Shown here piece by piece: positions 51,313-60,925 of a DNA stretch of 64,000 bases. The position numbers and the translations under genes were made by a program. The notes beneath the pieces are model-generated. The model was not told the DNA's origin. It was given only the letters and a program-made list of their open reading frames with translations, and searched no databases. This DNA comes from Cytophagaceae bacterium (lineage in GTDB: Bacteria > Bacteroidota > Bacteroidia > Cytophagales > Flexibacteraceae): assembly GCA_947458545.1 (NCBI GenBank), contig CANGYH010000002.1, forward strand, positions 124,001-188,000, given 5' to 3'. Each line of letters begins with the position of its first letter. The stretch's first letter is position 1.

Positions 51313-52050
51313 ATGCGCCAGTTATCTGCAGCCTTTATTTGCCTGGCATGCTTATCCTTAGCGCCTGCTTATGCACAAACTAAGCAACGCCCTAACCTAG
51401 AAGCCATACTCAGCAAACCGCCACTAATAACAGACCAAGACACCTTGTTTGCAGGCTTAAAAATCAGATCCATTACTTACGGAGTAGGGTACGGATTTAT
51501 TAATATCCAGTCCGAACTCCCCGCTTACGCCGGCGCTACTATGGTAATGTCTGGCTGTCTTGACGATGGATATTTTACCTCCATACAGCTGCGCCTAACC
51601 AACGACAGTATCATCAACCTTTACCAGCAACACGAGCGCAGCTATTTTTTTGTTAAAGACCATGCCCGCCGTACCGAGAGTGAACCCGAAAGCCCTGAGC
51701 AAGCAGAAGAAGCACTATGTGAGGTCCACTGCATACCCAAAAGCCCAATCTATAATATCTACACCTACAACCTAGGCCCCGTAACCTACGAGGCATTCTT
51801 GGCAAAGCTATTGGTCGGCCTCCGTGTGCTAGTCGGACGCGCCTACACCTTCACAGGCCAGTTTTCTACCCAACCAGACGCACTTTGCCTGGACGTTGAG
51901 GCGCTAGGCGCCCCAATCGTAGCAGCTAAATATTTAAAAGAAAAAATGCCAGGCAAGGGTAAGGGCATGCGCGCCTTATCAACACCCAAGCATTATGATA
52001 TAGACGGAGAATCCGCGCCTGGTTTTGTCAGGCTGGTATCAAATAAATAA
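51313..52050 (+). CDS. Hypothetical secreted protein
   Basis: 245 residues, not recognised. A signal peptide (LSAAFICLACLSLAPAYAQ) is followed by a soluble domain with four Cys, two of them in EALCEVHCIP. GC content is lower than in most neighbours (about half of the bases in the stretch sampled). Its ATG is only 3 bp after the upstream terminator, so either it has a promoter within or just before that hairpin or it depends on read-through. Confidence 0.6.
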   Translation: MRQLSAAFICLACLSLAPAYAQTKQRPNLEAILSKPPLITDQDTLFAGLKIRSITYGVGYGFINIQSELPAYAGATMVMSGCLDDGYFTSIQLRLTNDSIINLYQQHERSYFFVKDHARRTESEPESPEQAEEALCEVHCIPKSPIYNIYTYNLGPVTYEAFLAKLLVGLRVLVGRAYTFTGQFSTQPDALCLDVEALGAPIVAAKYLKEKMPGKGKGMRALSTPKHYDIDGESAPGFVRLVSNK

Positions 52051-56309: not shown

Positions 56310-58652
56310 TTAGTTGGCAGCGCTGGCCGCAGCACCCGCCTTCTGAGCAGGCACCGGTGCCACAGAGGTCCGGGCGTTCTTTAAGCCAGGCTTCTTGGGT
56401 ACAGGGGGCGTGCCGGGCATAACACCCGTAGCCGGAGCCGGCGTTGGGGCAGGGGCAGGCTCCACATTGCGCACCAGCTTCATCTCTTGCACAAGATTGC
56501 TGGCACCGCCAAGCTTATCTACACAGAACAGCACATAGCGGATGTCACAAATAATCGTCCGCTGGAAGGCCGGGTCATACGCAATGTTGCCTGACATAGA
56601 CTCCCAGTTGCCGTCGAAGGCCGTGCCAATCAGCTCGCCACGCGCATTTATCACCGGCGAGCCAGAGTTGCCACCCGTAATGTCGTTGTCTGTGATGAAG
56701 CCCACATACAGCTTGCCGTTCTCGGCATACTGGCCGTAGTCCTTTTTCTGCCACAGCTCCTTCAGCTTGGCAGGCACCACAAACTCCTCGTTGTTGGGGT
56801 CTTCTTTCTCCATGATACCGTCCAGCGTCGTGTAGTACTCATACTGCACACCATCGCGCGGCTTGTAGTCAATCACCTTGCCGTAGGTCATGCGCATGGT
56901 GCTGTTGGCATTGGGGTAGAGCTTCTTCTTGCCCTCCAGCATCTTCATGGTGCCCTCTACAAACAGACGGTTGGCTTTACCAAGCTCTGCCTGCACCGGG
57001 GCAATCATGCCCTGCTGCATAGCCAAAAACTGCGCCCGCACCGCACCACCAAATTTGATGGCCGGGTCTTCTTTAATCTTCTTGGCATCGGGCTTGGCCA
57101 GGGCGGCCTTCAGCTTGTCGGCGTTCGTCAAGAAAGACTTGGCGTACATGTCAGCCACAAAAGCCTCTACATTACCTTTAAACTTGGCCACCTGCTCTTT
57201 CAGATACGCGGGCTGCTGGTCAGCTGGCACATCCTTCATAAACATGGTAATCATCTGCGCCAGCAGCTTTTGGTCGGTAGCAGCATCATACTCTTTGTAA
57301 ATCTCAGAGGCAGCCTCCTCCAGGTCTTTGCGGGCACCTTCGATAGCCTCAGGCTTGGCGGGGTTGGCGTTCAGCGCATCGGCATAGCCGCTGGCCATAA
57401 AGCCCATCACAGGCAGGGCAGGCGTGCCAGAGAGGAAAGCCTCGCGGTAATACATGGCCGCCATCTCGTAGCTGCGGGCCTTGGTGTAGTTGTCCTTCAG
57501 CGTGCCCAGCACCGCGCCGTAGCGCGCCTGCCGGCCTGCATCCTGGCCTACCCACTGGGCAAAGGCAGCTTCTTCTTGCTGTTTCTGGCCTACTACGTTC
57601 AAACGCAGCAGATCGCGGCGCTCGCCCATAAAGAACTTCCAGTAGTTGGCAATGCTGGCATAGTTAGAGGCGTAGGTCAGGCGCTCTTTGGCACCTTTGT
57701 CCATATACTCCTTCAGCGTCTTCAGCTTACGGTCACGGATCTTCACAATCGTAGGATCCGAGATGTCAATGGCATTCTGCACGCCCCAGCTCGTCAGGTA
57801 ACGGTTGGTGCGGCCAGGGTAGCCAAAGATCATCGAGAAATCGCCCGGCTTCACCCCACTCAGAGAGATGGGCAGATACCAGCGCGGCTTCATCGGCACG
57901 TTGTCGGCACTGTACTCGGCAGGCTTGTTGTCTTTGTTGGCATACACGCGGAACATAGAGAAGTCTCCCGTGTGCCGAGGCCACATCCAGTTGTCGGTGT
58001 CACCGCCAAACTTGCCAATGCTCTCAGGCGGCGTGCCTACCAGGCGGATGTCCTTAAACCGCTCATAGACAAAGAGGTAGTACTCATTGCCGTCAAAGAA
58101 GCTCTTCACGCTGGCCACATAGCCATTGGGCGTAGCGCCACCTTCGGCCTCTTTTTTAATGGCAGCCATCTCGGCTTGGGCAGCAGCGTTGCGCTCTTGC
58201 TCCGTCATGCCGTCGTTCAGCTTGCCCAGCACGCGCTGGCTTACATCTTCCATGCGCACCAAAAAGTCTACAAATAGGCCTTCGGCACGCTTCTCTTCAG
58301 CCTTGTTTTTGGCCCACCAGCCATTCACCAAGATGTTATCCTGTGGTGTAGATAGCTTCGTGATGGCATCATAGCCGCAGTGGTGGTTAGTCAGAATCAA
58401 CCCCTCTGGCGAGATAATCTCACCCGTGCAGAAACCGCCAAAGCTCACGATGGCATCCTTCAGCGAGTTGTTGTTGATGTTGTAGAGCTCGTCTGCCGTC
58501 AGGCGGAGGCCCATCTTCTGCATATCCACATAGTTCAGACGCTTGATGTGGATGGGCAACCACATGCCCTCGTCGGGCGGTGCGGTTGCGTAAGCAGGCC
58601 CCTGCAAGAGGGCGGCGGCAGCCGCCAGGGCCAAAGTGAAACGCTTAAGCAT
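56310..58652 (-). CDS. S46-family dipeptidyl-peptidase (DPP7-like)
   Basis: 780 residues. A signal peptide (MLKRFTLALAAAAALLQG) precedes the chymotrypsin-like S46 enzyme with catalytic His in LILTNHHCGYDAI (about residue 90) and Ser in TGGNSGSPVINARG (about residue 662). Eighteen residues after that Ser is Gly in GTAFDGNWESMSG; in P. gingivalis enzymes Gly at this place marks DPP7 (hydrophobic P1) and Arg marks DPP11 (acidic P1). The enzyme removes dipeptides from periplasmic oligopeptides. The last about 55 residues form a Pro/Ala-rich tail beyond the catalytic domain. The start at 58652 is the first Met of the signal peptide. Confidence 0.92.
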   Translation of the reverse strand: MLKRFTLALAAAAALLQGPAYATAPPDEGMWLPIHIKRLNYVDMQKMGLRLTADELYNINNNSLKDAIVSFGGFCTGEIISPEGLILTNHHCGYDAITKLSTPQDNILVNGWWAKNKAEEKRAEGLFVDFLVRMEDVSQRVLGKLNDGMTEQERNAAAQAEMAAIKKEAEGGATPNGYVASVKSFFDGNEYYLFVYERFKDIRLVGTPPESIGKFGGDTDNWMWPRHTGDFSMFRVYANKDNKPAEYSADNVPMKPRWYLPISLSGVKPGDFSMIFGYPGRTNRYLTSWGVQNAIDISDPTIVKIRDRKLKTLKEYMDKGAKERLTYASNYASIANYWKFFMGERRDLLRLNVVGQKQQEEAAFAQWVGQDAGRQARYGAVLGTLKDNYTKARSYEMAAMYYREAFLSGTPALPVMGFMASGYADALNANPAKPEAIEGARKDLEEAASEIYKEYDAATDQKLLAQMITMFMKDVPADQQPAYLKEQVAKFKGNVEAFVADMYAKSFLTNADKLKAALAKPDAKKIKEDPAIKFGGAVRAQFLAMQQGMIAPVQAELGKANRLFVEGTMKMLEGKKKLYPNANSTMRMTYGKVIDYKPRDGVQYEYYTTLDGIMEKEDPNNEEFVVPAKLKELWQKKDYGQYAENGKLYVGFITDNDITGGNSGSPVINARGELIGTAFDGNWESMSGNIAYDPAFQRTIICDIRYVLFCVDKLGGASNLVQEMKLVRNVEPAPAPTPAPATGVMPGTPPVPKKPGLKNARTSVAPVPAQKAGAAASAAN

Positions 58653-58739
58653 AAGTTGAAAATCTGGAGGAAGCCCACCAGCCACGCCCAAAGCAGCGCG
58701 CCAGCCAAGCCAAACAGGTAGTTAGTACCGAATGTGGTG

Positions 58740-58875: not shown

Positions 58876-59910
58876 ATGGCAAACATCCACTATTTTCAAC
58901 GTTACTCACAACCTGAGAACGTAGCTACGAACAATACCCTTCTGCTTTTCTCTAGGTTCTATCAAGAAAAGCCTATCTACCTACAGAAGCTATTACATGC
59001 ACTGATCGAATTTGACGTTACAATTGGTATTACAATCAGACAGCAAGAGGGAGGGCCAAAGGGAATCCCAGACGGTTTCATTAGGCAAAGCAGTTTTGAA
59101 ATTATTATTGAAACTAAAACATCGGATTGGTTTTATCCAGATCAGTTTGAGAGACACATTACGGCATTTTCAAGTTCAGAAGGAAGCAACAAGATTTTGT
59201 TGGCAATCGTAGATGAAATTTCAAATGAAAGGCGAGATTCTCTTTCCAAAGAATTGAATCAGAAATTTGCCGGTAAATTTAAAATCCTAACATTTAAGCA
59301 AATTGCAGATGAGGCCTTAAGTGTTGCTTCAGGCAATTCTTTGCTGGAAGAAATCAGCCAAGAATTTGAAGAATATTGCCAAGCCTCTGGGCTCTATCCT
59401 AAATCTCGGTCACGCATGAAGGTTTTTGCAGCTGGCGAGACACTTGACGAAAATATAAAGTACAGCATGTATTACAGAAATGATGGTACTAAGCACATGT
59501 TCGATGGTTATCAGTTTATAGGAATGTATCACAACAAGGCAATTGGAGCTATAGGGAAGGTGAGAGGCTACATAGACGCTTACGTCATGGAGGGAGATCC
59601 TAGATCAGGTGATGCAAAGTGGTACACTGAAGCCATTGGAGACCTAAAAAATGCTGCAGATGCCTCAGAATTAATGGCCCGCGCTCGAAGTATGTCTTTG
59701 GATAGCCCATACGACATTGCTAGAATTCCACACAGATTTGTTGTTGTAGATGCCTTCCGATTTACATACATGCCTAAAAGCTCTCCAGGTGGAATTAGAG
59801 GGCCCAGAGCTTTTGAGTTACTAGATATTGATGGAATTACGAACGCTGCGATTGATAGTCCTGACTCTACAGAGCTCGCAAATCAGCTGAACGGTAAATC
59901 TTGGGCCTAA
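58876..59910 (+). CDS. AT-rich gene with PD-(D/E)XK nuclease-like motif
   Basis: 344 residues, family not recognised. An N-terminal segment MANIHYFQRYSQPENVATNN is followed by a PD-(D/E)XK pattern: IPDGFI with Asp66, then EIIIETK with Glu79 and Lys81, as in restriction-type nucleases. The middle is charged and helical; the C-terminal half is another unassigned domain (MYYRNDGTKHMFDGYQFIGM, IGKVRGYIDAYVMEG). No signal peptide or membrane helix. Base use is very different from the neighbours: three sampled 60-base lines contain 33-43% GC against 67% in a line from the next gene. Stand-alone, without methylase or helicase. Probably acquired; a defence role is an inference. Confidence 0.7.
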   Translation: MANIHYFQRYSQPENVATNNTLLLFSRFYQEKPIYLQKLLHALIEFDVTIGITIRQQEGGPKGIPDGFIRQSSFEIIIETKTSDWFYPDQFERHITAFSSSEGSNKILLAIVDEISNERRDSLSKELNQKFAGKFKILTFKQIADEALSVASGNSLLEEISQEFEEYCQASGLYPKSRSRMKVFAAGETLDENIKYSMYYRNDGTKHMFDGYQFIGMYHNKAIGAIGKVRGYIDAYVMEGDPRSGDAKWYTEAIGDLKNAADASELMARARSMSLDSPYDIARIPHRFVVVDAFRFTYMPKSSPGGIRGPRAFELLDIDGITNAAIDSPDSTELANQLNGKSWA

Positions 59911-59980
59911 CAGCAGAAAATGGATAGCGTCGGGCGTTTTTTCTATTGTGTATGTTAGTTTAGTCTATAAGTCATTATCA

Positions 59981-60925
59981 GTGAAGGTCTTTTTTATTGC
60001 ATTCTGCCTACTGCTCTCCCTGGCCCTCCAAGCCCAGCCCATCCTGCCCAACTACCAGGTCTTTTGGGGTAAAACCATCAACGGCTGGCTCGTCATCCGC
60101 CGCTGGCAAGACCCTGCCGACACCACCCAAATCGTTTACCTGGGCCTTAACCCCGTCACCTTCCGCACCCGGCCTCTGCGGGGCTTGCCCGTGCAGCCAC
60201 TAAGCCCCATGGCTTGGCACACCGCCACGGCTGCCACACCTTATGGCTTAGCCCTGGCCGCCGAGCGCTTCCGCAGCACCCCCCTGCAAGACGCCGGCCT
60301 ACAACGGGCCGACACCAACCTGCGCGGCTTCAGCCTCACCATAGACCTCTGCCCCAGCCGCAAACCGCTAGACCGCACCTTCTTCGACCGCCTCATCGCC
60401 GCTTTCGACTCTGCTGAGCGGCCCATCCCCGTAGCCATATCCCTCACAGGCCTGTGGCTGAACACCCACCCGGCCGACGTCGTCTACCTCAAGCAGCTGC
60501 AATACAAGCGCAAGCTGGCCATCACCTGGGTAAACCACACCTACCACCACGCCTACAAACCAGCTGCCCCCCTCACACAAAACTTCATCCTAACCCCCGG
60601 CACCAACCCCACCCAAGAGGCCCTACTGGCCGAGCAAGCCATGCTGGCTCGCAACCTGATGCCCAGCCCTTTTTTCCGCTTCCCAGGCCTGGTGTCAGAT
60701 GCTGCCGTCTTCAATCAAATCCTCAGCCTCGGCCTGCTGCCTATGGGGTCAGATGCATGGCTAGCCAAAGGCCAACGCCCCCAAAGCGGCAGTTGGGTCC
60801 TTATCCACGCCAACGGCAACGAGCCCGCCGGCCTGGCAGACTTCTTTGCACTCATCCAATCCAAAAGCACCCAAATAAGAAACCGCCAATACCTCCTCTA
60901 CCCCCTAGAGCAAGGCCTTCCCTAA
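59981..60925 (+). CDS. Secreted polysaccharide-deacetylase-like protein
   Basis: 314 residues from a GTG that opens a signal peptide (KVFFIAFCLLLSLALQAQ). The second half has a deacetylase-like order: SLTIDLCPS with an acidic residue after the first strand, ITWVNHTYHH with two His positioned as the metal pair, and FFRFPGLVSD for the Arg/Pro motif. The first ~120 residues are not recognised. It probably acts on a cell-envelope or imported glycan, but activity needs proof because the motifs are weak. GC-rich again, unlike the gene before it. Confidence 0.65.
   Translation: MKVFFIAFCLLLSLALQAQPILPNYQVFWGKTINGWLVIRRWQDPADTTQIVYLGLNPVTFRTRPLRGLPVQPLSPMAWHTATAATPYGLALAAERFRSTPLQDAGLQRADTNLRGFSLTIDLCPSRKPLDRTFFDRLIAAFDSAERPIPVAISLTGLWLNTHPADVVYLKQLQYKRKLAITWVNHTYHHAYKPAAPLTQNFILTPGTNPTQEALLAEQAMLARNLMPSPFFRFPGLVSDAAVFNQILSLGLLPMGSDAWLAKGQRPQSGSWVLIHANGNEPAGLADFFALIQSKSTQIRNRQYLLYPLEQGLP

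Follow-up and report, generated by a model that had tools for sequence, protein, structure and literature searches.

The window analysed here, a stretch of 64,000 nucleotides from a Cytophagaceae bacterium, holds an AT-rich gene that raises a question of both origin and function: where did it come from, and what does its protein do? The open reading frame at 58876-59910 (+ strand) starts with ATG, is intact, and encodes 344 amino acids; an in-frame TTG upstream of the ATG takes the open frame back to 58843. From the reading frame, its full-length homologs, and an AlphaFold model, we predict a PD-(D/E)XK nuclease followed by a C-terminal PUA-like reader. The gene is present as a single copy in its genome.

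At the compositional level, we compared the 56 non-overlapping ORFs of at least 120 amino acids in the window, and this one had the lowest GC (0.410 vs. a window mean of 0.594, SD 0.039). Its GC3 was shifted as well (0.368 vs. 0.698, SD 0.067), at about 4.9 SD. This agrees with the earlier note, which had singled it out as the most foreign-looking gene of the window. The low GC given there holds, but the 67% quoted for a neighbour line exceeds the window mean of about 59%. The second most AT-rich ORF of the window (51313-52050, GC 0.49) encodes 245 amino acids with a signal-peptide-like start.

The gene does lie between a peptidase and a deacetylase-like gene, as first described: on one side a divergent S46-type peptidase ORF (56310-58691, - strand), on the other a same-strand ORF (59948-60925, + strand) that is deacetylase-like by eye and has no Pfam match. 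No defence gene adjoins it at the window locus. A host-like promoter spacing had been proposed, but the best Bacteroidota-type site ahead of the gene presented 8 of 10 matches, which 42 of 500 shuffles reached, and is not above chance; a sigma-70 scan gave nothing informative. We found no target-site duplication or convincing repeat flanking the gene. G001 is the nearest relative to carry both flanking genes; they are separated there by about 19 kb and have other neighbours, and a clean empty insertion site was not readable.

None of 58 other genomes of the same family and order carries the gene, so a core gene present in all relatives, the case that had been set against a foreign origin, is not what we observed. 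Relatives were found in 8 of 394 genomes sampled across the rest of the phylum, and a profile search of the class added two further full-length members (G524 and G740). An Oscillospiraceae MAG carries a full-length relative, and a Macrococcus plasmid relative is represented by two near-identical records annotated as 'hypothetical protein'. IMG/VR contigs carry relatives too; several of these contigs, with three serine recombinase genes each, resemble integrative elements more than phages. Altogether, about 25 full-length relatives match the query over its entire length, with identities of 20-34%, patchily spread over Bacteroidota, Clostridia, the Macrococcus plasmid, serine-recombinase elements, and viral contigs. 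No close relatives were found, the nearest known one being at about 30% identity. Known phage genomes gave no relative by tblastn, although the predicted phage protein A0A8S5N646, assigned by its annotation to the PD-(D/E)XK superfamily, matched the model over 326 columns (E 1.4e-13). The GC anomaly, the patchy distribution, and the absence from the 58 relatives support the foreign origin proposed before, and the distribution pattern is the one expected of accessory genes that move between genomes, as opposed to core genes.

In four of the serine-recombinase elements (L036:6970-7998, L038:7018-7998, L035:7012-7998, and L040:7018-8004), the nuclease gene follows almost gapless after a conserved gene of about 330 amino acids, which had no Pfam match in the one member tested (L036). 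It could be a partner of the nuclease or the marker of a hotspot. At the same place in L039 (6358-8004), the gene ahead of the nuclease agrees with the ~330-aa gene over the first ~110 residues; its C-terminal part is different, longer, and has its own PD-(D/E)XK-like motif (DLLI...VVIENK), which suggests a module exchange.

Regarding function, the nuclease half (residues about 1-150; 58876-59325, + strand, as are all the gene features below) was recognised from VIA-align and Foldseek matches, and a linker helix (residues 155-170; 59338-59385; DSSP on the model) joins the two domains. Asp66, Glu79, and Lys81 had been read as a PD-(D/E)XK signature from their spacing, and the homologs reinforce this reading. 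The catalytic Asp66 of the PD motif (GAC, 59071-59073) and both catalytic positions of the Glu79-x-Lys81 ExK motif (59110-59118; E79 is GAA at 59110-59112 and K81 is AAA at 59116-59118) are invariant in 24 of 24 homologs. These homologs are divergent (20-32% identity to the query) and share ten invariant columns; assuming uniform scatter, the chance that three positions named beforehand all fall within ten columns of 344 is about 2e-5. Also invariant (24/24) is the pair E14-N15 of the first helix (58915-58920), which may form part of the active site.

The full-length AlphaFold model presented a pLDDT of 83 and a pTM of 0.68. Foldseek matched it to FokI (probability 1.00, E 9.5e-4) and also to N.BspD6I. 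For the nuclease domain, VIA-align gave Z scores of 8.9 for R.BspD6I2, 8.6 for FokI, and 8.4 for Can2 and AF1548, over 108-133 residues. Having both the D...ExK catalytic residues and a restriction-endonuclease-like fold, the protein is in all probability a PD-(D/E)XK nuclease.

Three further proteins (L025:1471-2469, L026:982-2007, and L027:1399-2385) were considered as family members and left out, since they match in the nuclease half only and their C-terminal domain differs. They are about 330-340 amino acids long, have the nuclease half in common (REN and D-E-K motifs), and end in another conserved domain (MDEVL...SKDSSRST). They are possibly a sister family of two-domain nucleases.

The second, C-terminal domain that had been left unassigned modelled well by itself: residues 172-344 (59389-59907) gave a pLDDT of 89.2 and a pTM of 0.85, and we now liken them to PUA-superfamily readers. 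The top Foldseek match of this domain was VcaM4I (E 8.9e-3, probability 0.95), with YTH domains next. The best 50 VIA rows were all EVE, ASCH, or YTH structures (Z 6.3-7.4, 106-126 residues, rmsd 3.2-4.3), including MJECL36 (EVE, Z 7.4), PH1033 (EVE, Z 6.6), ASCH (Z 7.1), YTH (Z up to 7.1), and the EVE domain of VcaM4I (Z 6.8 over 112 residues); SRA structures were absent among these best 50 rows, and lower rows may hold them. A Z of about 7 is reachable by common folds. The PUA assignment is therefore drawn from the uniformity of the best 50 rows and the coverage of the whole domain, not from single Z values. The domain had no match in Pfam profiles, and hhalign gave an E of 0.07 against EVE (4 sequences) and 0.21 against YTH (3 sequences). 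Neither profile comparison was significant, so it is the fold that the reader assignment rests on.

Thus, the C-terminal domain is probably a PUA-superfamily reader of the EVE/YTH/ASCH-like kind, predicted to recognize a modified base, and the models support a PUA-like pseudo-barrel with moderate strength only. PUA-like domains may also bind RNA or be enzymes (ASCH amidohydrolase or ribonuclease). The fold by itself is no proof of base binding, which we infer. Candidate base-pocket residues are Tyr199 (59470-59472) and Tyr218 (59527-59529), and Lys301 (59776-59778) may contact the DNA backbone; all three are invariant in 24 of 24 homologs. In a local hhalign comparison that was not significant, LDENIKYSMYY aligned with IHRSIKYNIWC of YTHDF2, a stretch 100% identical to PDB 4wqn. 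This would put Tyr199 at the position of the YTH cage Trp and is only a lead.

The same C-terminal domain occurs without the nuclease in a 262-aa protein of G510 (L060:7716-8504, which is L024:1234-2022). Its N-terminal part is predicted by eye to be membrane-spanning, its region has conjugation-type genes, and Lys301 is kept in it. Joined to a nuclease in one case and to a membrane anchor in the other, the domain would behave like a sensor. A bolder idea, which we hold to be unlikely, is that it represents a new branch of PUA-superfamily readers that sequence comparison fails to recognise. Its target would be a phage DNA modification outside the range of every known restriction enzyme, and the domain would have spread as an exchangeable sensing module, fused to a nuclease in this family and to a membrane anchor elsewhere.

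A sensor of this kind could also serve abortive infection: the ligand of the PUA-like domain would not be a DNA base but a phage protein, a nucleotide, or modified RNA, and sensing it would unleash the nuclease on host DNA. The membrane-anchored protein recalls designs in which sensors and effectors are interchangeable; Can2, a nuclease activated by cyclic oligoadenylate, is among the fold matches of the nuclease domain; and the relatives lie in a defence setting. However, we noticed no cyclase, CARF, or SAVED partner in the loci read, and the second domain groups with base readers, not with nucleotide sensors. We regard this explanation as unlikely.

The neighbourhoods of the relatives bear on whether the protein acts in defence. 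In L016, PADLOC models identified BrxA, BrxB, and BrxC (brxA-brxB-brxC) immediately downstream of the homolog, and in L012 they identified BrxL, PglZ, and PglX, together with an E1-E2/JAB gene, around it. A type IIG/DrmMI-like gene lies near the homolog in L011, a type I RM system in L036, and a type II/III methyltransferase in L037; DndD/PbeC-like and DndH-like genes adjoin it in L058. Defence or methyltransferase genes lie near about 11 of 25 loci, a qualitative count from those neighbours that were scanned. Among the auxiliary effectors that accompany BREX and BREX-related loci, a 2026 survey reports PD-(D/E)XK restriction endonucleases as the most prevalent (PMC12839542). In L012 (2983-7792), a trio of metallo-beta-lactamase, E1-E2/JAB, and patatin-like genes stands beside the BREX genes and the nuclease homolog, and may form a defence operon of the ubiquitin-like kind that includes a phospholipase.

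We consider a role in defence or inter-element conflict to be likely. An inactive or selfish mobile passenger, such as a homing-like nuclease or one for competition between elements, would have no host defence role. It would fit the patchy, mobile distribution, the distance to the nearest known relative, and a window locus that has no other defence genes. Yet the catalytic residues are all intact, and BREX, Dnd-like, and RM loci repeatedly contain or adjoin a relative. We hold such a passenger to be the least probable of the alternatives. Of the two functions offered when the gene was first described, a single-gene defence nuclease gained support from the patchy distribution, the D-E-K triad, the fold match, and the relatives in BREX, restriction-modification, and Dnd-like loci. 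The other, a remnant of a restriction system, does not suit a gene that is intact and whose full-length two-domain homologs stand alone elsewhere.

Another explanation is a sequence-specific type II restriction endonuclease, with its methyltransferase adjacent in the viral copies or acting in trans in this genome. On two viral contigs (L030 and L031), a ParB-N/N6_N4 methyltransferase gene ends no more than 10 bases from the start of the nuclease gene, and on a third (L029) a shortened N6/N4 methyltransferase ORF lies just upstream. In L033, the homolog follows a methyltransferase and a type II restriction endonuclease, and the best fold matches of the nuclease domain, FokI and BspD6I, point the same way. 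However, L033 already has that other dedicated endonuclease, most chromosomal loci read, including the window, encode the two-domain protein without an adjacent methyltransferase, and the second domain has the fold of a modified-base reader.

The host genome has one C5 and three N6/N4 methyltransferase matches, on contigs C3, C4, and C7, and the nuclease gene is on C2. No methyltransferase of these two searched families was found on the window contig, so a classical type II enzyme would have no nearby partner, and no cognate methyltransferase stands alongside the gene, as a type II RM system would have it. Overall, the type II explanation seems to us improbable. The C5 match, in G000 (L061, C4:139407-141050), falls in two parts of one ORF of about 600 amino acids, with about 270 residues between them that could be a large insertion for target recognition.

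We favour a stand-alone, NTP-independent, modification-dependent (type IV-like) restriction endonuclease as the more probable function. For its nuclease part, the intact gene, the fold, the invariant catalytic residues, the mobile distribution, and the defence neighbourhoods give support. A single gene with two domains is what the model presents and what many chromosomal homologs without an adjacent methyltransferase present too. In the proposed mechanism, the C-terminal PUA-superfamily domain would take a modified base in phage or plasmid DNA entering the cell and flip it into its pocket, and the N-terminal PD-(D/E)XK domain would then cut nearby through D66, E79, K81, and probably E14. The enzyme would most likely act as a dimer through the nuclease domains. 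A partner methyltransferase would not be needed because the mark itself is the trigger, and a gene that needs no partner can move and work alone.

Since the host bears C5 and N6/N4 methyltransferases, such an enzyme must ignore the host marks: either the surrounding sequence would tell target from host DNA, or the base that it reads would be another one, perhaps hypermodified. The mark that BREX sets is 6mA, and a relative encoded within a BREX locus cannot be one that reads the methylated BREX site, which mildly favours modified pyrimidines as the target.

If this is correct, the protein represents a small family of modification-dependent restriction enzymes, each encoded by a single gene, that is undescribed and occurs in Bacteroidota, Clostridia, and Staphylococcaceae, repeatedly in BREX loci. 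Phages evade BREX, RM, and some CRISPR systems by means of modified DNA, and it is this DNA that enzymes of the type attack; such enzymes are also of practical use as reagents in the mapping of modified bases. Searches against Pfam, NCBIfam, PHROGs, and PDB sequences returned nothing for the protein, and further profile searches gave chance matches only. The initial impression that it has no known family therefore stands: no Pfam, NCBIfam, or PHROG model covers it, which is why its members are annotated as hypothetical proteins. For these otherwise unknown proteins, the PUA-like second domain is a concrete, testable prediction.

Among known systems, PADLOC gave a weak HMM match to PDC-M15A (E 5e-4), confined to the 46 residues of the catalytic stretch (65-110); it leaves the second domain outside and is not a whole-protein match. 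BrxU/GmrSD, the type IV enzyme of BREX islands, is likewise modification-dependent, accompanies BREX, and acts independently (PMC12707154), but it differs in its DUF262-HNH architecture and NTP-stimulated activity. Two-domain modification-dependent endonucleases consist of a nuclease and a PUA-superfamily sensor; they typically dimerize through the nuclease domains and use no NTP (PMC7897488). One of them, VcaM4I, cuts 5mC/5hmC DNA once the base is flipped into its EVE pocket (PMC7897488). Its reader, first in the Foldseek ranking, has the fold of the C-terminal domain described here; in VcaM4I the reader is N-terminal and paired with an HNH nuclease, whereas here it is C-terminal and paired with PD-(D/E)XK.

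Prokaryotic proteins in which a YTH-like or DCD-like domain is joined to a PD(D/E)XK nuclease have been described (Bell et al. 2020, PMC7641849); they have the same general domain combination as here, a likeness that we judge by description. Those fusions were found through an archaeal YTH sequence, while our protein showed no significant profile similarity to human YTH domains or to EVE. Finally, the PvuRts1I family, type IV-like and 5hmC/5ghmC-dependent, has the same order of an N-terminal PD-(D/E)XK domain and a C-terminal SRA reader (PMC4027163), which is of PUA-superfamily type, in a single gene with no NTPase, again likened by description. It differs in that PvuRts1I joins an atypical catalytic domain to SRA, whereas our protein joins a canonical DxnExK to an EVE/YTH/ASCH-like domain. 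The enzyme family is apparently undescribed, and its kind is already known.
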